From the NCBI GenBank assembly GCA_948144175.1, contig CANXME010002675.1:62001-126000 (forward strand): a DNA stretch of 64,000 nucleotides, in the 5' to 3' direction. A program made the translations under genes and the position numbers. The stretch comes from Closterium sp. NIES-65 (lineage: Eukaryota; Streptophyta; Zygnematophyceae; Desmidiales; Closteriaceae). Under the pieces are notes generated by a model. The model was given only the letters and a program-made list of their open reading frames with translations. It had not been told where the DNA came from and did not search any database. Below, piece after piece: positions 2,791-64,000 of the stretch; within the stretch, counting starts at the first letter, position 1; each line of letters opens with the position of its first letter.

Positions 2791-2882
2791 TCGCTCGAGA
2801 GCGGAAAAAAAAGTTGAGCGCGCCTCGGGGCGCGCTTCGGTGGGCCCTAGGCAGAGTTCCACAGGGAACCCGCTCTATACCA

Positions 2883-3010
2883 TGTGAAATGAGTAAGCAG
2901 GAATGAAATGACTAAGGAAAGATTGGGTACAAATACAACCCTAGAAACCCTGTACCCCATATGTGCTACCCCACTATAGCCTACAGCAACTATGTCATAT
3001 AAATCTGACA
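2883..3010 (-). repeat. 5' LTR of copia copy 1 (128 bp) with adjacent primer binding site
   Basis: The LTR begins TGTGAAATGAG and ends AAATCTGACA on the plus strand. It is homologous to the 125-130 bp LTRs at 30952-31078, 38198-38322, 40471-40600 and 41877-42006. Just before it (about 2871-2882) the minus strand reads TGGTATAGAGC, close to the initiator-Met primer binding site TGGTATCAGAGC. That fixes the orientation as minus. Confidence 0.8.
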
Positions 3011-3848
3011 CGTGCGCCCGCTGAGGTGGCAGTCCTTGTGGTAAATCATCCGGAAAAATCCCCGGGAACCGTTTCAGTAGTGCCTGTAGTTCGGGCGGTA
3101 CGGCTGCCAACAGTTTCTGTAAATCACTCGGGTGCTCCTCTTTTTCTACTAGTGCGATATCCACTGCGTACACGTCAGCTCCAGCAGCGACAGCCCGTTT
3201 CATCGTGATGGCGTTGACCTGGACCGTCGAAGATTCGGGTGGCTGCCAGCGAGGTAGAACGACCCAGTTACCACTACTTCGCACTGTGCAGCTTCCCGTC
3301 GTCCAGTCAATTCGTGGGTTGTAACGTCGCAGCCAATCACGTCCCAATAAAATGTCGTGCCCATCCAGTGTTGTTGCGAGCATTTCCTGTGTAAACCCGA
3401 AGTTCCCCCCGCAGCGGACTTTTACTCGCTCCGCCTTTTCCCGTATAGCCAGGGGCGTGCCGTCGACTAAACGTGCATCTATCTCAGGTAAGCATCGGTT
3501 AAGTGTTAACTGTAATTTCCGTGCGGTTGCGGTATTAACTAAGCTGTGACTTGCTCCTCCGTCAATAAAAATCTTCACTGCTGCTCCCTGTATTTTCCCG
3601 TAGATCAGTACCGGGCAATCCGTCGCTGTACCCTCCTTATTCATCCGAGCCCGATCGATGGCGTGAATCGGTACTGTGACTCGGTGAGGGTCGGTGTGGT
3701 TGGGCGAGCAGGCAGTCTCGTCAGTAGTTGGCCCAACTTCTACTGACTGCTGGCGTTTCCCTGCCTCTGAGACTCCCTCCCCTGCTCTGCTCCTCGACGT
3801 CTCAGCTCCTCTGGGCAGTCGCTCTTGCGATGGCCCGGCCTGTTGCAA
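3011..3848 (-). CDS. Ty3/gypsy pol fragment: aspartic protease and start of the reverse transcriptase linker
   Basis: An open minus-strand frame encodes a retropepsin-like domain with active-site motif FIDGGASHSLV. Strands typical of gypsy proteases follow (GHDILLGRDWL, then RYNPRIDW), then the pre-RT linker ending FPDDLPQGLPPQR. In gypsy elements this Pro-rich segment directly precedes the reverse transcriptase. Here it stops because copia copy 1 is inserted at 3010/3011, and the few codons read into the LTR are not native. The frame overlaps the end of gag in a different frame, so either a frameshift is used for expression or one has arisen by decay. Confidence 0.75.
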
Positions 3849-4918
3849 GCAAAGCAGCGCCCTTTAAACGGTGCGGCAGCTGCATTCGTTGCGACGGCAT
3901 GTACAGTGGCGTGCTCGGTCAGTCCCCGAGGACGATGTCCGTAATAGGACCCCGGTCTCGGTCGGCGTAGAATGTCGATCTTCTCGGCGAGCGCGAGAAT
4001 CTCGTTGAAGTTAGAGAGTCCGCGCAGCATTATCTCGTGCGAGATGTCCGGCTTCAGCCCTCCGACGTAACGGTCCACCCGCTCCGCCTCGTGCATGTAG
4101 CCGACCTGTTCGCAAAGTGCGAGAAAACCGCTGGTATAGTCTTAAACTGACCCGAGCTGGCGCCAAGTGCGCAGTTTCTGACGCGCCGAAATTGAAGCCG
4201 CGATCGGCTCAAAACGCGCCCGAAGTCCTGCGCACCACGCATCCCACGTGCTGTATTGGGCGGTCTCGCAGAACGAACTCCAGGTGACAGCTGGACCCGA
4301 GGGCCCTTCCTCGTGCGACGATGGCTCGTAGGCGCGTGGCGACGTCACGATGACTCGCCACCAGTCCATGGCGGGGCCCCTGAGCAGTGAAACCGCATAC
4401 CGGATCTTCGCGGCGTCCGACTCGACGTAATTGGCGTCGAAGAAAACGTTCATCGTGAAGACCCACGATTGAACTGTCGGACCGCCGCGTTGGCTTGGGT
4501 CGAAGCAGGGCGGGCGTTGCGGCTTGAGCGGCATTGGGGCCATTATGGCGTTTTCGCCACTTGTCGTCGCAAACTCCACGTGCCGACGGGCTTCTCGGGG
4601 CTCCCGTGGGCTTGGTGCGCTCCTGTTTCTTCCCATGCCAGGCATCGGCTGGGCGGCGCCTTCACTGGCTGCGCCTGAGCGTTGTCCCGTGCTGTCGTGT
4701 TGTGTTGGTGTGCCGGACGAGATGACGATCGGCTCATCCGAATGTGCAGATGCATGTGTTGGTGCGTGTGATGTCGTCGGTATGTTCACCGTAGACTGTT
4801 GACGGGCGGAGTCACGTTCCGCCGTGAGAGTCGCGATTTCGAGCGCCGAGTCCTCCAATTGACGCACAAGACGATCGAATTGCTCTTGCGTCAATGTGGC
4901 GAGCGTGAAATCGGCCAT
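3740..4918 (-). pseudogene. Ty3/gypsy gag with zinc knuckle, one in-frame stop
   Basis: The frame begins with ATG at 4918 (MADFTLATLTQEQ) and encodes a coiled-coil-like N-terminus and a retrotransposon gag domain (motif LLRGPAMDWW, then TWDAWCAGLRARFEP). It ends in a CCHC zinc knuckle, CFACNRPGHRKSDC. A TAA codon at 4142-4144 interrupts an otherwise continuous frame: reading through it gives the expected gag continuation (DYTSGFLALCEQV). Gag packages element RNA in virus-like particles. The single stop suggests a relatively recently inactivated copy. Confidence 0.75.
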
Positions 4919-5085
4919 GGCGGGGGTGTCGGGCAAGCTCAGCGAGAGCCTCGGTCGTGGCCGTGCGTGCTTGCAAGAGAGCACTACGAGCGGCGGTGCT
5001 GTATCGCTGAGAGACGTCTACCCCCCCCAAAAAAATTGAGATAGTGGGAAGCGAAGGTGTGGATGCGGTCCGAGATGAGATCGTA

Positions 5086-48700: not shown

Positions 48701-51700
48701 GTCGAGCGGGTTGCTCCTAGGGTGAGTATCGAGTGAGTTGAAGAGGAGTTGGGAGAATGTGTGCTTCACTATAGGGTTCGAAGTACATATAGCAAAGGAA
48801 ACACATAAGGTGCACCACCACACAAAGTTTAAATAACTACACTAACTACAGCTACAGGCAGTTACAAATATAAGGAGCAAACAAGCAACTCCACTGGAAG
48901 GGAAGATCCCAGAGAATGCAACAGAAGCATGAAATATAGCACAAGGAACATTTCGTGTGCTGACACTGGCAAGGGATAGATGGGGGGATAAAAAGTGAGG
49001 AGAGAACTGAAGTTTGTGTGCCCCAACAAGTGTCAGTGACATGTACAATGGCCACGAGGAAGGGCGAATGGGAGAACGGCAGAGAGAGGCGAAAAAGATG
49101 TTGAGTGCAATACATAGTTTGCACGACAACTTACCGCCTACGTGTCGACATTGAGAGAAAGTGAGGTGTTTTGTCTCAAGGTAATTTGTTGTGTGTGAGT
49201 TGCGCATTTATGTGCTTCACGTTTCTGTGTTTACGGCTCGTGAATCGGATCAACGGTTCATGAGTTATGTGAGTTCCCGTGAAAGGTTGTGTTCCTGAGT
49301 GTTCGTGAAGGTCCGTGTGTGAATGCGAGACTTCGTGTGCGTTTGCGTTGCTTCGCGAGCTTTCATAAGCGTGTGTTGATTTTGTGTTCGTGAATTTCTA
49401 TTATTGGTAACTATGTTCGTGAAATTCCGTGAAGTTTGTGCGCTGTTCATGAATGTTTGTGAGTGTTCATGTTAGTTTTCGTTTTTCTGTTTTCGTGTGT
49501 GCTCATGAAGTATCGTGGGTGTTCACGAGGGGTCAATGTTGACCCTTAGAATTCTCGCGATGGTCAAGGTCAACAGCGCGAGGAAATCGGGACCCGCGCG
49601 TGGGGTTCTGATCACGCGTGTGGGTCCTCAGGCCCGCGCGTGTGCCTTCGCACTGCTGCGAGCGTGGCATGGCCCACGATCGCAATAGAACAGAGCGAAT
49701 GATCGCCCTGCCCACGCGCAGTACAGCGCACTGTACAGCACGACCGAAATATCGGTCGTGCATGATTGCAGCCGTGGGGGTGCTCGGGATTACGGTTGAA
49801 AAACCGTATCCCGCGTTGACTCGACTTACAAGTAACTTCGCTGGAAAGATCGCGCGAGTAAAGGGACGATTTCGATACAGGAGAAAAACGGTGAAAGCCG
49901 TTTTTCAACTGTGAGACTTAGTGAAAATGGTAATCTCACACGAGCGTTTATGATTGCGCACGAGAAGTCGCGAACGTTCACGAGGGGAGTCAGCAGGGGA
50001 ATTTGGCAGACATGAAATTTGAAGACAGTTATTCTACAGGGGAGAACCAAGCCAAATTCCGAAGCAGTTCGACAACCGTTTTCCTTGGCGCATCTGGCGA
50101 AGTCCTGAAGTATAGATAGACAACTGCTTTGTGCTTTCTCATGCTTGTGTGCTAGGCGAAATATAAATGCGTGCTTGTGAGCAGTTGTAATCAATCATTT
50201 TGAGTGAAGTTATTCTCTATCATCGTATTGACGTGAAGAGAACTTTCTGCACGCGACCAGTTCGTCGTCATAACGCTGCGCAAGGAGTTCTGAGAATGCT
50301 CTATTGCACATGATCGTTTTCATACTTGGCGTATCCCTCTACAACACACGCACCCTTGGTTAGGGGCTGGCCTTGTCAGGCACCCAAGGACCCTTGGAGG
50401 TGACCCCGTGGGGACTGTTAAGTGTGAATTCAAGGTGTGCATAGTAGCTTCCAGATCTCAATAGTAGTCAACAAGTGGTATCAGAGCTATGGTTCTACGG
50501 ATTGCCGTTAGAAGAGTATGGCATCGGGCGACAATGAAGGTTCTTTGCCACAAGCTAATAGCGGAAGCCAAGATAATGGTGATTCAGCGCCAAGGAGAGT
50601 GCGGGTCAGCAGGGGCTCCCTATTGAAGGAGGTGCTCAAGAATTTCGTCGTCGATAAGTTCAACGGCAACGGCTACGACGATTGGGCGTGGAAGATGCAG
50701 TTGGCTTGTTGAAGCTGATGACAAGCAAGGAGAAGAGGCTGGACGACCCGAACCTACAAGAGGAGTGGGACGAACGTGCAACGGCCGGCTACTACCTTCT
50801 CTCACAAAGCTTGGAGCTGAACCAGCGGTCACACGTGATGCATCTGCTGGAAGAAGCTGATTGTGGACCTCGAGCTTGGAAGGTGCTAAAGGAACTGCAT
50901 GCGCCTACCTCGGTGGTTGCAACGCTCATGCTGGAGCGTGAATTGGCGGCATTGCGTCTGAGTGAGGGGGAGCCGATTCAACCGGTTCTCGACAAGATGC
51001 GGGAGTTATATGCGAAGTTGCAGATTGCGGGCATCACCTACCCGGAGCAGACGAAGTGCATGCGGATGCTATCACTACTACCCGAGTCTTGGTTGCAGTT
51101 TACAAGCGGGCTGAGCCTCCCTCAAAACAAGAAGTCGTGGACCCTGGAGTGGGTGCGAACCAAGATTTTGGGGGAGGATTTCAGGAGGCGGCAGTTCAAT
51201 CTGAGTCAAGATGGTGATGGCGGCTATGGAGTTCAAGGGGGCAGGTGGCGTAAAGGAAACAACCGCGGTCAAGGTGAACATGGACGGCACATAAATGGTC
51301 GCGATGAGAGGGGCGAGAGGAGCAACAGTGATGATGAAGAAGATGATGAGCACGGTGGCTACCAAGGGTTCAAGGGTACCTGTTGGTATTGCAAGAAGCC
51401 GGGGCACACTTGGGCAAGGTGCTGGAAGCGGCCCAAAGGGTGGACTCCTGGATATGAGGGTGGTGAACGAAAGGAGAACCAACACCACGGCGTTGGTTAT
51501 GTAGCAGAGACCGCAATAGAACCGAACACTGTTCGGTTCGGCGAACAATTTGAGCAAAAAATGGTGTTCGCCGTTCGCCTGTGAAGGCGTGTTCGGGCGA
51601 ACCTCGAACACTGTTCGTGTTCGTCGCGGGAAAAATGCAGCAGCGGCCCGAACACGAACGTGTTCGGGCGAACATCAAACACTGTTCGGCGAACATTTTA

Positions 51701-57700: not shown

Positions 57701-59952
57701 TTAGGGTTTCTCATTCTCTCCTTGAAATGTATCTCGAACTTTTGCTAATGATAACATTTCTCTCAACCATGGCTCTCAAGTAGGGATGAGCACGGGCCGG
57801 GCCGGGCCTGGCCCGACCCGACCCAGGCCGAATGACCAAGACCCTGGCCCGAGCCCGACCATTTTGCACTCGGGCCAGGGTGGCCCGACCTGGGCCAAGC
57901 AAGGCCCGACCCGGGCCGGGCCCGGGCTGGCCTGGGTGCACTCTTCAGATAGAGTCAAACATGATTTACGAAAACAAAATATCTTGAATTTAAACCTAAT
58001 CTAAACTAAAACGCACAATTTCGTCACCCTTCGATATAACCGTTACTTTAAAACGAAAAACTAACACTAAAACCTAACTTACTTAGTAGGTGAGATCTAA
58101 ATATATGGCGAGAAGCTAGGGGTGAGCTTGCGTTTAGAGCTTGCGCAAAATGTCGCGCAGCTCAAACTTGACACCCGCGACACTTGTTGGGAGGGTCAAA
58201 TCCCCGCGTGATTGAAATATGATGAAATTGACTCAAATCTCAAATCATGCCAACAAAAAACAACAAAAACCGCATTTGACTGCACTGAATCGAGGTCGAC
58301 TAGATCTGGCCGCATTTGTTGGCCTGAGATCTAGTCGATAGCGTAATCAACTCACAGGGTTTTCTCGACCAACTATTAACTAGCTTATATGTAAACTTGT
58401 CGCAGGGGAGATAGACGGGCCAAAACAGCCCGACCCGGGCCGCGCATCGGGACAGGCCGGCCCGGCCCGGCCTGGGGCATTTCCGGACCGGCCCGACCCG
58501 GGCTGGGCCCAGCCCGTTTTTTTTTCTCAACCCTACTCCCAAGCATGCTTTCTCAACAGGGGCAAACATGATTGTGTTCGGTTCTTGACAGTATTATGAT
58601 GTTGTCATCCCACGCCATAATATTACTTCTACCTTGCAATCCACAATCACATGACTCCAGTCAGATGCACGCTACTAGAGACCACACGACGCAGCGAATG
58701 AGAGGGTGGTGGTCAGCGGAGCTGATGCGAGTGGATATAAAGAAAGAGGGAAAAATGGAATGCATGGGTCAGGACTAGCATCAAAAGGAGGAGAATGGCG
58801 GGGAGTAGAGGGGAGATGAATCTGGAGTACAGCCAAGCAAAGGCCTTGTTGGGGGCTTACAGAGAGTTCAGTTTTGAAAGGTTGCCAATTTCAGAGGGAA
58901 TTGTGCCACTTAGCTGATTGGAAGAAAGTGATCTGCAATGGATGGAAATATTCATGTTTGCAACGCAAGGAATGATGGATAGGAGAGAGAAAGCAAATCT
59001 GTTGGGAGGCAAAATCCCCCTGAGGATGCAACGGAGACACCAAAACCAGCACAATGGAGAGTGTCTGTGGGACGTGCGAAGATGTGGACATAGATGGGGA
59101 CATGAGAAGTGACGAGAGACGTGCACTTTGTGTGGCCCAAAGAGTGCCATCAACGTGTAGAATGGCCATGGGAAAGAGCGCTTGGGACAGGGGACTGAAT
59201 AGAGGGAAAATAGATAGGAAAAAAGGAAAAAAGGAAATGAGAAGCACCGGAGGGTTGATGCGGAGAGTGCTGTGAAAGGGGGAAGAGGCACGAAAAAAGT
59301 ATGCAAAGATTTTGAGGTTCTGGGATTGGAATGAACAGAAGGATGTGGTCAGAATGTGGGAGCAATACAAAGGGGGAGAAGGGTAAACGGACAAGATTAG
59401 TGAAAAGAGACGGCAAGGATTATGGCGGAAAAGGAGCATAAAGGCTTTACCCTCAGAAAAAGGTTCGTAAAAGTGCCTTGCCGATTCTCGAATCGGAGAC
59501 CAACAGGCACTCGATCCCTTCACTCTAGCCAGCAGTGTGGCTTCACCCTCCCTTACCACCCAGCACAAAGGTGTTTAGCCAGAGTCGTGTCCGACTCAGT
59601 TCGCTGTTTGTGCATATCTGCAGACAGATGCTGCAGTGTGTTGTCATTCCAAGCCTACCTTGCAATCCACAATCACATGCCTCCAGTCACATGCGCAATA
59701 CTAGAACCAAGATCACAAGATACAACCAAGGAGGCGGTGGTGGTCAGAGGAGCGGGCGAGTGGTTATCAAGAAGAGGGGCCAACGGAGAGCTTGGGCAAG
59801 ACTAGCATCGGGCAGAGGAGAAAAAGGTAGAGCAGAAGAAGCTGAAGTACAGCCAAGCAAAGGCCTTGCAGGGGGCTTACAGAATAGTCAGGTTTGCAAA
59901 GTTCCCCAATCCATCAGGAATTGTGCCAGTGAGTAGATTCCTAGAAAAAGCT
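42799..59952 (-). CDS. LRR-exon array with LysM-like C-terminal exons (gene model partial, possibly a pseudogene)
   Basis: LRR exons of exactly 72 bp lie at 59881-59952, 58861-58932, 56957-57028, 54473-54544, 53900-53971, 52918-52989 and 48471-48542. Damaged ones are at 55794, 51863 and 47050. Each has the same phase and encodes one plant-type repeat, for example NQLSGTIPSEIGNLSKL. The 3' end has an exon 42964-43289 (LDCSKPIKVGRSVCLERS, TQDTCDQLL, LYRNNPGLTC) joined in phase to 42799-42822 (VCLEEEY, then TAG). The Cys spacing and NPGL/VCL motifs resemble plant LysM modules that bind chitin-like glycans. There is no kinase or membrane segment, so a secreted or surface protein is likely. The phase between the last LRR and the LysM-like exon does not fit, so at least one exon is missing. 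No signal-peptide exon was found. Confidence 0.6.
42964..43289 (-). CDS. LysM-like exon of the LRR-array gene
   Basis: 326 bp between acceptor TTGCAG (43290 side) and donor GTGAGG (42961 side). It contains six Cys residues before the terminal exon adds one in VCLEEEY. The segment LYRNNPGLTC followed by GSNIGVQ-VCLE fits the end of a LysM repeat. Another Cys-rich carbohydrate-binding fold is possible. Confidence 0.55.
43290..44239. other. Intron of the LRR-array gene
   Basis: Contains the intron block seen in the other LRR repeat units (GAGTATGAAT, TGGCAACGAGC, GCATGAGAA and related phrases near 43300-43640). No exon was recognised. Confidence 0.5.
44248..44514. mobile_element. hAT-type MITE, TAGGGATGAGCA family, copy 1
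   Basis: Terminal inverted repeats TAGGGATGAGCA and TGCTCATCCCTA. The 8-bp target duplication GCCATTAG is at 44240-44247 and 44515-44522. The interior is built from GAACACGAACGTGTTCG-like palindromes. The ends and duplication length match hAT (Ac-like) elements. Confidence 0.95.
44910..45770. other. GC-rich block with GGCGTCCTGG-type repeats, origin unknown
   Basis: It begins with a primer-binding-site-like TTGGTATCACAGAC (44910-44923). It contains many imperfect copies of CCCAGGACGCC and CCAGGCGTCC (45340-45545). Open frames exist on both strands but show no known domain. It could be the leader of a non-autonomous retroelement. Confidence 0.4.
45908..46009. mobile_element. hAT-type MITE, TAGGGATGAGCA family, copy 2 (102 bp)
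   Basis: The same terminal repeats as copy 1, with 8-bp target duplication CTCACAAC at 45900-45907 and 46010-46017. This is the shortest copy. Confidence 0.95.
46165..46293 (-). repeat. Solo-LTR-like sequence related to copia copies 1 and 2
   Basis: It contains the conserved LTR block GGGTTGTACTCATTACAGAG followed by TACCCCACTGCAGGC and ends ATTCTGACA. No target duplication or partner LTR was found. Confidence 0.55.
46610..46946. mobile_element. hAT-type MITE, TAGGGATGAGCA family, copy 3 (degenerate ends)
   Basis: The ends read TAGACATGAGCA and TGCTCACACCTA. The interior shares the GAACACGTTCGTGTTC motifs. No target duplication remains. Confidence 0.7.
47050..47121 (-). pseudogene. LRR exon with a lost splice donor
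   Basis: It encodes NQLTGSIPTALGMLTNL in phase with the other LRR exons, and the acceptor TTGCAG is intact. The donor GTAAGT reads TTAAGT (47048-47049 complement). Confidence 0.75.
47347..47602. mobile_element. hAT-type MITE, TAGGGATGAGCA family, copy 4
   Basis: Ends TAGGGATGAGCA and TGCTCAACCCTA, with 8-bp target duplication CATCGGAC at 47339-47346 and 47603-47610. Confidence 0.94.
48471..48542 (-). CDS. LRR exon (72 bp)
   Basis: Acceptor TTTGCAG and donor GTAAGT intact. Encodes NQLSGTIPVAICSLAHL, one repeat of the array. Confidence 0.75.
49188..51514 (+). mobile_element. Truncated Ty1/copia element (LTR, primer binding site, gag)
   Basis: The primer binding site TGGTATCAGAGC is at 50476-50487. 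The LTR should end at about 50473. A start near 49188 (TGTTGTGTG) would make it about 1.3 kb, but this is unproven. A TATAAAT box is at 50162-50168. Gag follows, and the element is cut off where a MITE remnant begins, so pol is absent. Confidence 0.7.
50518..51514 (+). pseudogene. copia gag with zinc knuckle, frameshifted and truncated
   Basis: It begins MASGDNEGSLPQANSG and ends its first frame after KFNGNGYDDWAWKMQ. The continuation is in another frame from about 50690 (LLKLMTSKEKRLDDPNLQEE, then LLPESWLQFTSG), a UBN2/copia-type gag. A CCHC knuckle CWYCKKPGHTWARC lies near 51390-51430. After 51514 the frame runs into MITE sequence and is meaningless. Confidence 0.85.
51515..51749. mobile_element. 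hAT-type MITE remnant, TAGGGATGAGCA family, left end lost
   Basis: The interior GAACACGAACGTGTTCG motifs and the right end TGCTCAACCCTA are present. The left inverted repeat is missing at the border with the truncated copia gag. Confidence 0.8.
51863..51934 (-). pseudogene. LRR exon with a lost splice acceptor
   Basis: Encodes NQLSGTIPAEIGNLAKL. The acceptor reads TTGCAT instead of TTGCAG, while the donor GTAAGC is intact. Confidence 0.75.
52918..52989 (-). CDS. LRR exon (72 bp)
   Basis: Acceptor TGGTAG and donor GTAAGA. Encodes NQLNGTIPSSVGNFANL. Closest sibling is the exon at 56957. Confidence 0.75.
53900..53971 (-). CDS. LRR exon (72 bp)
   Basis: Acceptor TTGCAG and donor GTGAGC. Encodes NKLSGTIPAEIDNLSKL. 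Closest sibling is the exon at 58861. Confidence 0.75.
54473..54544 (-). CDS. LRR exon (72 bp)
   Basis: Acceptor TGGCAG and donor GTGAGG. Encodes NQLNGTIPTAICNLTNL. Confidence 0.75.
55477..55699. mobile_element. hAT-type MITE (CAAGG family), second copy
   Basis: Inverted relative to the copy at 23412. Ends CAAGGTTCAAAATTATG and CGTAATTTTGATCCTTG, with 8-bp target duplication TTCCGGAC at 55469-55476 and 55700-55707. Confidence 0.94.
55794..55865 (-). pseudogene. LRR exon with both splice sites lost
   Basis: Still recognisable as NQLSGTIPAEF-like sequence. The acceptor reads TGCAA and the donor ATAAGC. Confidence 0.7.
56391..56716. mobile_element. MITE with GGGTCGGGTCGGG-type interior
   Basis: It interrupts the conserved LRR intron phrase CCTACCTTGCAATCC between 56390 and 56717. 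The right end reads TTGCTCACCTCTA, similar to the TAGGGATGAGCA family. The interior (56520-56710) is CCCGACCCGACCC/GGGTCGGGTCGGG repeats. The left end is unclear. Confidence 0.6.
56957..57028 (-). CDS. LRR exon (72 bp)
   Basis: Acceptor TGGTAG and donor GTAAGA. Encodes NQLTGTIPASMGNFADL. Confidence 0.75.
57781..58535. mobile_element. hAT-type MITE, TAGGGATGAGCA family with GGCCCGACCC interior (755 bp)
   Basis: It starts TAGGGATGAGCA and ends TCTCAACCCTA. The 8-bp flanks CTCTCAAG and CTCCCAAG match at 7 of 8 positions. GGCCCGACCC repeats lie near both ends, with unique AT-rich sequence between. Confidence 0.85.
58861..58932 (-). CDS. LRR exon (72 bp)
   Basis: Acceptor TTGCAG and donor GTAAGC. 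Encodes NQLSGTIPSEIGNLSKL. Confidence 0.78.
59881..59952 (-). CDS. LRR exon (72 bp), most 5' one seen
   Basis: Acceptor TGGCAG and donor GTAAGC. Encodes NLLTGTIPDGLGNFANL. Confidence 0.75.
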
Positions 59953-60957
59953 CTGCCAAGATGAACATGAATGCAAAGGCAAAATCCCCCCAGTGAATGC
60001 ATGAAGGCATGAAAGGCAGCACGATGTGAAACGTGCTGGAAATGGGGCTGTTTATTTTATGGAACATACATAAAAAATAGAATTAGATGTGTAGCAATCT
60101 TATAAATTGGGGGGTTGTTTAGTGTACCCTCCAACCAACCGCAATTTGTGGTTGATGGGGATTGATCCTTAGCTCAACCAATCCCGACCAACACCTTGTG
60201 CTTGCTTGGGACACAAGAAAGCTCACCCATTGGCCACCTTATTGGCCAAAAGGGTAAGCTTCCCTCTCATTTCTCTCTTGTTCATTGTCTGTACTAAAGA
60301 GCCTCTTGGCTCTTTCTTCAATGTTTCAATTCTATCTTTTCTAAAATGTTCGAACCAAACTCTTTGGCCAAGAAGAATTACCCGTTCGGTTTACTCAGAG
60401 CATGTTTGGGGTGTCGCGTTATTAACACTTAGCTGGCAACTAAGTGTGAATTCCACAGCAGCCAAGGTGAGGTGTACTATAGTTTACTGCTTTTTGCATT
60501 TTACTTTGTTTGCTCTTTTTGGAATGTTACTGTACTATACAGAGTCGAGCTACTGAGGAGTTCGAGGGGGTTGGTGAGGAGGATGAGGGCGAATTCGATT
60601 CTAGCCAGCCTGGGAATTCAATTTGACATTCACAGGCTGGAAGGCGGTGCATGCCTAGTGGGCCCAGTGGGACCCAGCTAGCACCTTGAAGCCTACGCGA
60701 TCAGCTCGGCTGACTCGCGCTTAGGAGTAGAGGTAGCTTGCGGGACAAGGCACCTAGGCAGGAGAGGATTTAGACGGAAGTAGCGCTCGGACTCATTGCT
60801 TTTTGCTTGTATGTTTCTCATTTACTGCAATTGTGATTTCCTAATCCAGGGGGAACTAGCAGTAGAGAGGAGCTGAAGCAAATCGGCGGAGCCCTTGCAA
60901 GGGAGTTAAGTCTTGTTTCAAGGAGGAAGATAGGTGCCCCCTCTTATCTCAGTCCCT
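59953..60957. other. Region upstream of the LRR array and downstream of the methyltransferase-bearing gypsy element
   Basis: No LRR exon, signal-peptide exon or retroelement domain is visible here. The frames at 60206-60681 have no family resemblance. Confidence 0.4.
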
Positions 60958-61217
60958 CTTCCTGTAATAATTCAGGAAGCCGAGTAACGCCCGCAGCCCT
61001 GTCTTGTCCTTTGGCGCTGCCAGGTTCCCCAGCACCTTAACCTTCGCCTCTTATATGGCCAGCCGACCGCCCTTCACTTCAAACCCCAGGTAGGCCACCG
61101 TGTGCCTCGCCATCTTACACTTATCTGGGTGACACGTCAGCCCCGCAGCTGCTATTGCCTCTAGAGTCTGCTTCAGATCTTGCACATGCTGTTCTTCGCT
61201 GCTGCTGTAAATCCCCT
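60958..61217 (-). pseudogene. Gypsy RT thumb fragment downstream of the deleted catalytic site
   Basis: It resumes in a different frame with IYSSSEEQHVQDLKQTLEAI, then LTCHPDKCKMARHTVAYLGF, an internal stop, and LRALLGFLNYYRK. These are typical of gypsy RT after YIDD. The catalytic YxDD segment is missing between the two pieces. Confidence 0.8.
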
Positions 61218-62794
61218 TCAGGCTGCAGCTGGAATCCCCTTCAGCACTTGATCCATGGCTCTCTTAAACACTGCTGGTGCATTACTAAGCCCGAAAGGCA
61301 TAACGTTGTACTCATACAACCCGTCCACCCCGTGAAATGCAGTTTTCTGTTTATCTGTTTCTCTAATGCCTATCTGATTGAAGCCCTGCCACAGGTCCAA
61401 GGTGGTAAAGACGGTGGCCCCTTCCAGCCGGTCGAAAATATCTTCAGCAGTCGGCATAGGGTATCTGTCAGGGCTTGTAATCTTGTTCAGCTCCCGGAAA
61501 TCCCCGCACATCCGCTTCGCTAGAACCTTTCCCGTGATGTCCTTCCTAGCAGCTACCACCGTGGCCGCTGCGTAACTTGATTCTGACGGGCGAATTATCC
61601 TTGCAGCTAGCAACTCCTCACATTTCTCTTTGCAGATGGCTGCATCCTCCGCATTCATTCGCCTCCTGCGTTGGTATGTAGGTAGCTCGGTTGTGAGGTT
61701 CAGCTCCAGCTCTCTCCCCTTGTATCTCCCCAATTCCTGCAGGTTATAGGCGAAGGTGCCCCTATGCTGCTGCAACATCTCCCTGATTGCTTCAGCTGCT
61801 TGCTCCCCTATACCTGCCCCCAGCTCCCAGGTTTTGCCCGGCTCTGCTTCCTTGCCTACTGGTGGTGCAGTATTGATCTCCTTCTCGTCTGTGAGCTTGC
61901 TGACAGTGCTGTAAGCAGCTTGCTTGCCGCCCCTGCCCTTCTCCTCTTCCGTCTTTCCCCTTTTCTCGGCTGGCCCCTTTCTCATCTCACTAACTAGCCA
62001 TCGCAGCGAGTGCTGGTCTATGGCTCGGCCCAAGGCAGCTTTGCGCACCTCCTCCCCCACTCCGTCTGCTGCTGTTGCCCCCGGCAAGTACCCCATGGCT
62101 AATTCCCGCTCCAAAGCCGTCAGCTCCTCCCATCTTTTCTTACGGTGATCATACACCATCCCTGGACCTGGAGTCCCTTCCACTTCGACAAATCCCCATG
62201 CCTTTGCATAGGCCACCAGTGTCGGCCAGGCCCTCCTTGCTTCCCCCACTCGGTTACACTGATACTGTCGCGGATGATCTGGCTTTACCACTTGGGCGGC
62301 CACTCTCCCTGGTTCCAGGATGTCTTCCACAATTCGACTCTCATCTCTCCACACCTTTGCTAATCTCGCCCTCAGTTCTCCTTCTGGCAGGACGTTCTGC
62401 CATTACTGCCGCACTCTATGACACCTTGCCCCCAGCTGTGCCCCGTCACAACTCACTCCCCTTCCCAATTCTGCTTCCACTAGCTCGCGTACGGCTCGGA
62501 CCGGCTCCCTGATATCACTCCTCATATCCACATGTTCTAGGATGTAAGCATATTCCCCGCCAGATTCTCTCGCCCACCTCATAATTGTCAGCAGTGTTGT
62601 CACCATCGCCGTGCGGTCATCCTGCATTCCTCTTCCCTTCCCCGCTCGGGAAGTACCCTGGCACTCCCACCCTGCTACCAACAGGTCCACCTTTCCCCAG
62701 CGGTTCACATCTTCCCTGGTAAGCTGTCCCACATCCCACTTCTCATTCTGCATGGCCTCCCGTATCACTTCCTTCGCCAGTTGAGCTGGGTACC
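61218..62794 (-). pseudogene. Fusion of C5 DNA methyltransferase and gypsy reverse transcriptase, 5'-truncated, one in-frame stop
   Basis: From 62794 the frame reads YPAQLAKEVIREAMQ, then VDLLVAGWECQGTSRAGKG (methyltransferase motif IV; the Pro of PCQ is Glu, the catalytic Cys codon is 62661-62663). ILEHVDMRSD follows (motif VI, ENV as EHV), then AQLGARCHRVRQ (motif VIII). A TAA at 62400-62402 interrupts, and the same frame goes on with WQNVLPEGELRARLAKVWRD, ERELAMGYLPGATAADG and ALGRAIDQHSLRWLV (motifs IX-X). RT follows: RIIRPSESSYAAATVV, CGDFRELNKITSPDRYPMP, FTTLDLWQGFNQIGI and YEYNVMPFGLSNAPAVF. The frame ends at 61218, just before the place of the catalytic YxDD. Known C5 methyltransferases transfer a methyl group from S-adenosylmethionine to cytosine. 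Activity here is unlikely because of truncation and the motif change. Confidence 0.85.
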
Positions 62795-63162: not shown

Positions 63163-63176
63163 TGGTAATCAGAGCC
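63163..63176 (+). other. Primer binding site
   Basis: TGGTAATCAGAGCC, complementary to the 3' end of initiator tRNA-Met with one inserted base relative to TGGTATCAGAGC. Confidence 0.8.
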
Positions 63177-63324
63177 GTTCTCACTCGACGACTCTCGGCT
63201 AAGCAGCGGTCGCGGAAAAAATCGCCTCGAAAAACCGCCGGGGGCGACCAATTCGACGCCGAATTCTGGTAAGTACCAGTTCCGCGCTTTTCAAATTAAC
63301 CCCCTCGCGTGGTTTTTGAACAGG

Positions 63325-64000
63325 ATGGGTTCGTCGGCGACCAACGACGTTACGCAGCAGCTCTTCGCGCAAATCGCCAAGATGGAAGCGGAGATGCGAG
63401 CGACGACTGAACGGTCACGATTGGAGAACGAGCAGCTGCAAAACGAACTCCAGCGCGTTACGCGGCTCCTCTTGACCATGAACATTCCTGCTTCGACGAC
63501 TTCGCAGCAAACGCAGCGTCAGTTTGAGGTTCCGAAACTTCGCTCGCCGGAATCGTTCGACCCTAGCGATCGAAAATCCGACGTCAGGCGGTGGCTCGCG
63601 ACGATGGAAATTTATTTTGCGGCGATCGGATGGTCGACGACGGAGTACAACGGCGAAAAAATTCGTCTCGCGACAACGTTGATGCGCGGTCCAGCTCTCG
63701 AGTGGCTCGGAAGCAACAGTAGCATTTTCCAGGGCGAAGCCACGTGGCAGCAGTTCCAGGCAGACCTTCTCAAACGTTTTGAGCCGATTAATTCCACTTA
63801 TATTGCGCGCGAAAAATTACATCACCATAGGCAATTCAGGAGTGTCGCGCAATACACGCAGCAGATGGAGGAATTTTATAATCACATTCCCGACATTACC
63901 GAGGGCGAAAAAATTCAGTCCTACATCGCGGGGCTGAAAACCGACATTCGGCGCCAGGTTGCTGCAGCGAACTACAGCAGCTACAGCGAAATCGTATCGG
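63325..64000 (+). CDS. Ty3/gypsy gag, N-terminal 225 residues (open, partial)
   Basis: ATG at 63325 (MGSSATNDVTQQLFAQ) opens a frame without stops to the edge. It has a coiled-coil-like N-terminus (ERSRLENEQLQNELQRV), then a retrotransposon gag domain (FDPSDRKSDVRRWLATME, LMRGPALEWLGSN, QFQADLLKRFEPIN, YIAREKLHHHRQF). The zinc knuckle and pol should follow beyond the window. An open frame together with a complete LTR suggests a young copy. Gag would form the element's particle. Confidence 0.88.
   Translation, partial: MGSSATNDVTQQLFAQIAKMEAEMRATTERSRLENEQLQNELQRVTRLLLTMNIPASTTSQQTQRQFEVPKLRSPESFDPSDRKSDVRRWLATMEIYFAAIGWSTTEYNGEKIRLATTLMRGPALEWLGSNSSIFQGEATWQQFQADLLKRFEPINSTYIAREKLHHHRQFRSVAQYTQQMEEFYNHIPDITEGEKIQSYIAGLKTDIRRQVAAANYSSYSEIVS

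Follow-up and report, generated by a model that had tools for sequence, protein, structure and literature searches.

The window analysed here, a 64,000-nucleotide stretch of Closterium sp. NIES-65 DNA (contig CANXME010002675.1, positions 62,001 to 126,000), contains a fragment that by its sequence belongs to a family of Ty3/gypsy retrotransposons with a DNMT3-type cytosine methyltransferase (DNMT) in the Pol polyprotein. Longer copies elsewhere in the genome carry two pairs of repeats, A and B, arranged around the open reading frame (ORF) as A1-ORF-B1-A2-B2. We consider it probable that the complementary DNA (cDNA) of these elements is joined end to end and opened by the integrase at an internal palindrome, and, with less certainty, that the DNMT3 domain of Pol methylates the double-stranded cDNA before integration.

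A methyltransferase in the Pol of an amplified gypsy family

The genome searched was the 874-Mb assembly that contains the window (L-numbers denote loci and C-numbers contigs), and the copy counts are lower bounds, scoring having been confined to the best candidates. With the Pfam profile PF00145 at least 123 scored matches were obtained out of 901 candidates, many in frames of 1000-2300 amino acids, and the reverse transcriptase (RT) piece of the window gave at least 108 matches from 105 scored of 10241 candidates. At least 43 copies besides the window had 94-96% identity over at least 389 of the 394 residues of the RT piece; the matched stretch was free of stops in 41 of the 43, the frame was 2084 amino acids long in 16, and the score was equal in 21. 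Given so many near-identical and mostly stop-free copies, the family has been amplified recently.

Twenty-two long loci were taken and the ORF pieces of nine were scanned with Pfam. The domains follow the order zinc knuckle, aspartic protease, DNMT, RT, RNase H, zinc-binding integrase domain and rve integrase, and the whole series lies in one open frame in L018, L022, L014 and L037. DNMT to integrase shared a frame in eight of the nine loci, with a stop between DNMT and RT in L010; stops split the series in L010, L013 and L027, L026 has a separate gag frame, and the scanned frame of L025 begins near the protease. The preliminary description of the window had proposed a gypsy Pol carrying a C5-methyltransferase, and this is borne out by the many genome copies with both domains together in long frames. 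It had also raised the question whether relatives always have the methyltransferase between protease and RT and keep the PCQ motif. The position upstream of RT was found in 9/9 loci, and a protease match lay upstream of the DNMT in 8/9, above the curated cut-off in five (L018, L022, L025, L027 and L013) and below it in L014, L010 and L037, the Pfam scan of ORF pieces giving no protease match in L026. The PCQ part did not hold: the motif was ECQ in 18/18 rows from 17 host loci, and is ECQ in the window copy as well.

Membership in Ty3/gypsy follows from an RT related to that of Ty3, the closest solved RT (1e-65), and an integrase placed after RNase H. No tyrosine recombinase was matched by Pfam (E up to 0.01) in the scanned ORFs of the nine loci, which have the rve integrase instead. 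In C995 (460522-474898, L025) three matches to the DNMT-gypsy sequence are spaced at a constant 7064 bp and form a tandem array whose period is A+ORF+B; between the first two, a comparison over 2837 bp gave 100% identity.

From alignment and fold comparison, the domain is a complete and unrearranged DNMT3 type under purifying selection. The motif order is not rearranged, the fold is DNMT3-like (VIA-align), and the catalytic Cys, the motif VI Glu and the motif VIII Arg are kept, Cys and Glu being invariant where aligned. The usual Pro before the catalytic Cys is replaced, the domains having EC in 106/127 cases and PC in 18/127. The ratio of nonsynonymous to synonymous substitution rates (dN/dS) was 0.04-0.21 in seven pairs, dS being saturated in five. 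The rearranged DRM type was ruled out by the motif order and a weaker match. A native host DNMT3 was looked for with a mouse DNMT3C fragment. Of 675 candidates 150 were scored, and among the resulting 77 matches, the best of which reached 41 bits, none stood apart from those of the elements as a native gene with introns, in a search limited by introns and with matches not all inspected; the retroelements may hold the only DNMT3-type genes of the genome, the search being weak for exons.

Split repeats, target duplications and two kinds of joint

In a self-comparison of the 22 loci, in several of which the 9.9-kb stretch taken stops inside the element, both repeat pairs were found in ten, always as A1-ORF-B1-A2-B2 (the L009 stretch cuts A1), and L038 showed the A repeats plus a trimmed B2. 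The element ends are TGTC...GACA. The two integrated ends are not identical long terminal repeats (LTRs), since the 5' end is A and the 3' end is B, and the direct repeats are split as in DIRS elements (A-ORF-B-A-B). A target duplication of 4 bp (6 bp in L013) flanks the start of A1 and the end of B2 in 16/16 copies examined, namely 9/9 copies with all four repeats located, 6/6 further copies and L038, where random 4-mers would match by chance in 0.56% of cases; the integrating unit is therefore the whole of A1...B2. A purine tract ending in GGGGGCA stands at the start of B1 in 8/9 copies (it is not seen in L024, in which B1 was called further in), and one such boundary has 52 exact occurrences in the genome.

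The two inner joints differ in their variability. In the subfamily of the window the B1|A2 joint is CGACA-GC-TGTCG, a palindrome of 12 bases made up of both integrated ends and GC, and other subfamilies share the core GACAGCTGTC, with one change in L013. When any 0-30 bases were allowed in the gap, all 24/24 matches had one and the same B1|A2 joint, and a search of the same kind for A2|B2 gave 23 matches with 16 forms (reversed control, 0). The usual A2|B2 form consists of the A end TTGTTTC, 0-5 variable bases and the B start GGGAAGCC; one form retains GGGGGCA and others are trimmed. The additions A, AT and ATA could be copied from the sequence that follows A1 (ATACAAGC), which is not the case for the other additions. 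Added bases, a leftover primer tract and trimming are products of the end-to-end joining of reverse-transcribed linear DNA, and the variable joints resemble those of 2-LTR circles. Of three further subfamilies, one had four A2|B2 forms in four matches, another three forms in four, and the last yielded one match. For 16 of the 24 B1|A2 matches the search also gave an A2|B2 joint, and the other eight were read individually; among these, trimming was larger in C842 and C863, and in C21 a cut B end with GC kept was joined inverted. Two identical A|B joints 683 bp apart were seen in C2025 (44161-45556, plus strand), a duplicated A-B unit.

A proposed integration route

Reverse transcription would start after A1 and at the purine tract before B1 and yield a linear cDNA of the form [B-A]-ORF-[B-A], since B starts at the purine tract and A ends at the presumed primer side. 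The two cDNA ends would then be joined, the A|B joint being formed anew for each copy. The DDE integrase of the element would bypass the cDNA ends and make a 2-nt staggered cut in CGACA-GC-TGTCG inside the 5' [B-A] unit, severing both strands of CGACAGCTGTCG behind CA. This would leave CA-3' ends of the kind seen in processed retroviral DNA, and their transfer to the target would give A-ORF-B-A-B. From the structure, the target duplications and the invariant and variable joints observed in the copies we infer the joining before the cutting, a circle as against a joined dimer, and the identity of the nuclease. Less certainly, the DNMT3 of Pol would methylate the CG sites of the double-stranded cDNA, probably a circle, ahead of integration, and new copies would in this way arrive premethylated. 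Marking of the element's own cDNA would be the most natural use of the DNMT, and has already been proposed (PMC5890265). A circular double-stranded stage, thought to be present in DIRS too, may explain the presence of methyltransferases in both groups. For the stricter version, in which normal heritable integration proceeds through end-joined (2-LTR circular) cDNA and the DNMT3 acts on the circular stage, we regard the case as evenly balanced.

Several observations weigh against this route. The circular cDNA is itself deduced from scars in integrated copies. In a circle the B|A palindrome would be present twice, and the copies show opening at just one of the two places, A-B-A-ORF-B occurring in 0/10 loci with two repeat pairs. 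No primer site of the transfer RNA (tRNA) type (TGG) was found after A1 in the copies read, and the B1|A2 joint of L013 has one change. For nine of the 23 A2|B2 joints the form recurs in a different copy, the C2025 pair within one element not being counted, so some of these joints may be inherited or recurrent. In 5/24 copies with the B1|A2 joint there was no B2 at the expected place, A2 being followed by other DNA in C2299 and C501 and by 5' internal element sequence in C106, and no element sequence being present at that place in C180 and C2305. As for the enzyme, every aligned host row has Glu where motif IV would normally have Pro, the methyltransferase activity of the family is a predicted one, and the DNMT of KnitGypsy gave no methylation in yeast, a result judged inconclusive by its authors (PMC5890265).

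The competing explanations fare less well, to differing degrees. That the two domains stand together by chance, pseudogene fusion or assembly artefact might be thought from the window copy alone, a truncated fragment with a broken frame that has an inverted A repeat next to it; this possibility, whose chance form the preliminary description had itself raised, can practically be dismissed given the long open frames with both domains in many contigs and the relatives in Closterium, Haematococcus and Monoraphidium records. An ordinary gypsy element, with linear cDNA integrated by its LTR ends and the extra B contributed by recombination or tandem insertion, would agree with the protein order and the 4-bp target duplication, both usual for gypsy, with the tandem array of 7064-bp spacing in C995, with part of an A repeat followed by 5' internal sequence in C106, and with the five copies without B2. 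We hold it to be very improbable, since the target duplications at the outer ends of A1 and B2 contradict it and B2 must therefore have arrived with the element; moreover, the identity of B1 to B2 is near that of A1 to A2 in most of the ten loci (L010 being worse, 89% vs 97%), and the joints vary among near-identical copies, unlike what the copying of one old rearrangement would give.

Somewhat better placed, though still rather unlikely, is a DIRS/PAT-like route to the same circle, in which circularisation is templated by the internal B1-A2 and the integrase cuts the B2-A1 joint. The plan A-ORF-B-A-B is shared with KnitGypsy-Dnmt3 and SymbioDIRS-Dnmt3 as these are described (PMC5890265), and the lack of a TGG primer site in the copies read would fit as well. 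Such templating predicts that B|A is made and A|B inherited, yet A|B is the variable joint; the purine tract at the start of B1 and its leftovers in some joints also speak against it, as do the DDE integrase and the target duplications. A DIRS element with a tyrosine recombinase was ruled out by the rve integrase, the target duplications and the absence of a recombinase match in the ORFs scanned. Of the alternatives, the one to which we give most room, while thinking it doubtful, is that the DNMT is kept for another role (RNA methylation, cDNA binding or a structural one) and that ECQ is weak or inactive. It draws on the Glu beside the catalytic Cys in 106 of the 127 domains and on a report in which the KnitGypsy and SymbioLINE domains are given as inactive in yeast, with an RNA role proposed for the LINE one (PMC5890265). 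Against it stand the invariant Cys and motif VI Glu and the low dN/dS, unlike those of a dead scaffold, together with the DNMT3-like fold and the SymbioDIRS-Dnmt3 domains, described as active in yeast and as methylating CG de novo (PMC5890265).

The copy in the window

The window frame was searched with Pfam profiles (curated cut-off of PF00145, 22 bits). It is a single minus-strand frame from 62825 to 61218 with a TAA at 62403-62405 as its sole stop, and its upstream piece matches PF00145 DNA_methylase (5.8e-5, 23.1 bits, profile 46-97; 62583..62735, motif IV region) and its downstream piece RVT_1 (2.6e-15, profile 10-142 of 205; 61230..61514, the N-terminal part only of a Ty3/gypsy RT). The preliminary description, made from the letters alone, had placed methyltransferase motifs and a gypsy RT in one minus-strand frame interrupted by one TAA, and had proposed just such a profile comparison; both matches agree with it. 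By blastn the homologous fragment extends over 60958..62794 on the minus strand (corresponding to L037 4309-6158) and is truncated at both ends, with 95.5% identity to L037 and 96.3-96.9% to L030-L036.

Aligned with intact copies, and with motif numbers that are our own assignment, the minus strand shows motif IV, AGWECQGTSRAG (AGWECQG), at 62640..62675, with the catalytic Cys and Glu for the usual Pro; motif VI, YILEHVD, the EHV form of ENV, at 62526..62546; and motif VIII, QLGARCHRVRQ*WQN in the frame translation, at 62394..62438, broken by the TAA. C-terminal methyltransferase motifs follow past the stop at 61992..62237 (RRAWPT, ERELAMGY, ALGRAID), the IX-like RRAWPT lying at 62220-62237 and motif X, ALGRAIDQ, at 61992-62036. 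Motif I, protease and gag are absent because the homology begins only at 62794; the end of RT, RNase H and integrase are also missing, the RT frame breaking at 61218 and the homology to the family continuing to 60958. The window copy is a dead, truncated relic. An A repeat of the same family (TGTC...TTGTTTC) lies at 60412..60920 on the plus strand (blastn, 94.7% to L037 A1/A2), 37 bp from the Pol fragment and in opposite orientation, and is either a rearranged piece or a separate solo repeat; a reading as Pol piece, deletion and then A repeat was rejected because of this orientation. No tRNA gene was found in the window.

Eight relatives were compared with the window copy, which departs from them at 31 of the 1718 sites on which they agree. 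Changes of C>T or G>A had occurred at 10/154 CpG bases vs 8/803 other C/G bases (p = 1.2e-4), a CpG decay that points to past CG methylation of this copy, by any enzyme including one of the host.

Distribution of DNMT-bearing elements

Three protein searches returned 181 proteins, 177 of which yielded a DNMT domain. The best relatives were from Closterium; between the L022 domain and a Closterium sp. NIES-65 protein the identity is 98.8%, and for the L037 domain it does not exceed 84% with any protein compared. Two layouts were found, with the DNMT upstream of RT (type I, 57 of the 177) or downstream of RT or RNase H, and upstream of the integrase where this was seen (type II, 74); 16 proteins had an integrase anchor only and 30 had no anchor. 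The named type II proteins are four from Haematococcus lacustris and one from Monoraphidium neglectum, and many of type II have a PHD finger. Members with PC occur in both types (13/69 scored type II rows and 1/15 scored public type I rows). None of the 181 was labelled as a Klebsormidium protein, and no relative was confirmed in viral contigs (31 pattern matches in a first search, none in a second).

In a DNMT tree with two vertebrate outgroups only, its bootstrap not settled, one branch (90/97) comprised 50 type II rows and a second (100/99) grouped the host rows with Closterium rows close to them; six rows were basal and unresolved, including three type II PCQ rows and two of type I. A quick RT tree rooted on Ty3 alone placed type II in one branch (99) and type I without the protein P0161 in another (84). 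P0161 combines features of both types: its DNMT precedes RT (type I), and its integrase is followed by a PHD finger (type II). We read these trees as one old association of DNMT and Pol with a later change of place, and two captures are also compatible with them. Past its PHD finger the C-terminus of P0161 reads DPWAGSGA...SSPWF, which resembles motifs of N6-adenine/N4-cytosine methyltransferases, although Pfam gave no match of that kind; this polyprotein may carry two methyltransferases.

Other elements in the window

A Gag of another Ty3-type element lies at 63169-63999 on the plus strand (Ty3_capsid 1.7e-12, Retrotrans_gag 8.7e-12), opposite to the DNMT-gypsy fragment and cut by the window end. 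A Copia-type gag is present at 50658-51581 on the plus strand (Retrotran_gag_2, 9e-18), and a retroelement aspartic protease (6.5e-9) with a weak gag match below cut-off at 2850-3863 and 4145-5017 on the minus strand. A minus-strand frame at 58857-59348, ending in LSSNQLSGTIPSEIGNLSKLNSL, resembles a leucine-rich-repeat exon as judged by eye only.

Relation to known systems

If the proposed route is true, each full insertion bears its own end-joining scar, with more than 30 scored joints in this genome open to re-reading, and in gypsy and DIRS, two unrelated kinds of retroelement, the capture of methyltransferases would be linked to a circular mode of replication. The family would then be natural, sequence-level evidence that an element with a DDE integrase may integrate via circular DNA. 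The unusual ECQ catalytic motif is open to assay, and the question why transposons retain an enzyme producing a mark by which they are usually silenced becomes accessible to experiment.

With Ty3/gypsy LTR retrotransposons the family shares the order protease, RT, RNase H and integrase, the TG...CA ends and the 4-bp target duplication, and differs from them in that the integrated ends lie inside an LTR-like B-A unit (split repeats) and in the extra DNMT domain. Elements of the DIRS order are not known to have a target-site duplication, unlike the present family with at least 4 bp in 16/16 copies. SymbioDIRS-Dnmt3 of Symbiodinium, as described in PMC5890265, likewise has a retroelement Pol with Dnmt3 and A-coding-B-A-B repeats, and differs in having a tyrosine recombinase in place of a DDE integrase and an RT of another class.

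The foamy virus integrase cuts its own palindromic 2-LTR joint in vitro (PMC1180852), and cutting of such a palindrome has been reported for the HIV-1 integrase (PMC1905944). The foamy virus circles and the present family both have a palindromic joint, with cleavage of the two strands behind CA (proposed for the latter), and some heterogeneity of LTR-LTR junctions; unlike that described for foamy virus, the joint scar here lies within integrated copies and the palindrome is internal. A retroviral circle as provirus precursor is treated in PMC1180852 as proposed and not substantiated, and the titles and abstract openings listed for gypsy split direct repeats and 2-LTR palindromes revealed no DDE-integrase element of this plan.

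The charophyte and dinoflagellate precedents mentioned in the preliminary description exist (PMC5890265), and a Dnmt3-bearing gypsy with DIRS-like repeats is already known as KnitGypsy-Dnmt3 of Klebsormidium nitens (de Mendoza et al. 2018, PMC5890265). According to its description it has in common with the Closterium family a gypsy Pol, an unrearranged Dnmt3-type domain, DIRS-like repeat order, purifying selection and a streptophyte algal host. Its copy number is stated there only as lower than in Symbiodinium, where the present genome has at least 123 PF00145 matches, and the description, on which alone the two were compared, gives no target duplications, joints, palindrome or integration route. 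The range of DNMT-carrying gypsy elements is thus extended from Klebsormidium, the sole charophyte found reported, to Closterium, and to chlorophytes with the domain elsewhere in Pol. New relative to that description are a family in Closterium, another arrangement of Pol in chlorophytes and the ECQ motif, together with the termini, the target duplications, the joints and the integration route that they would imply.
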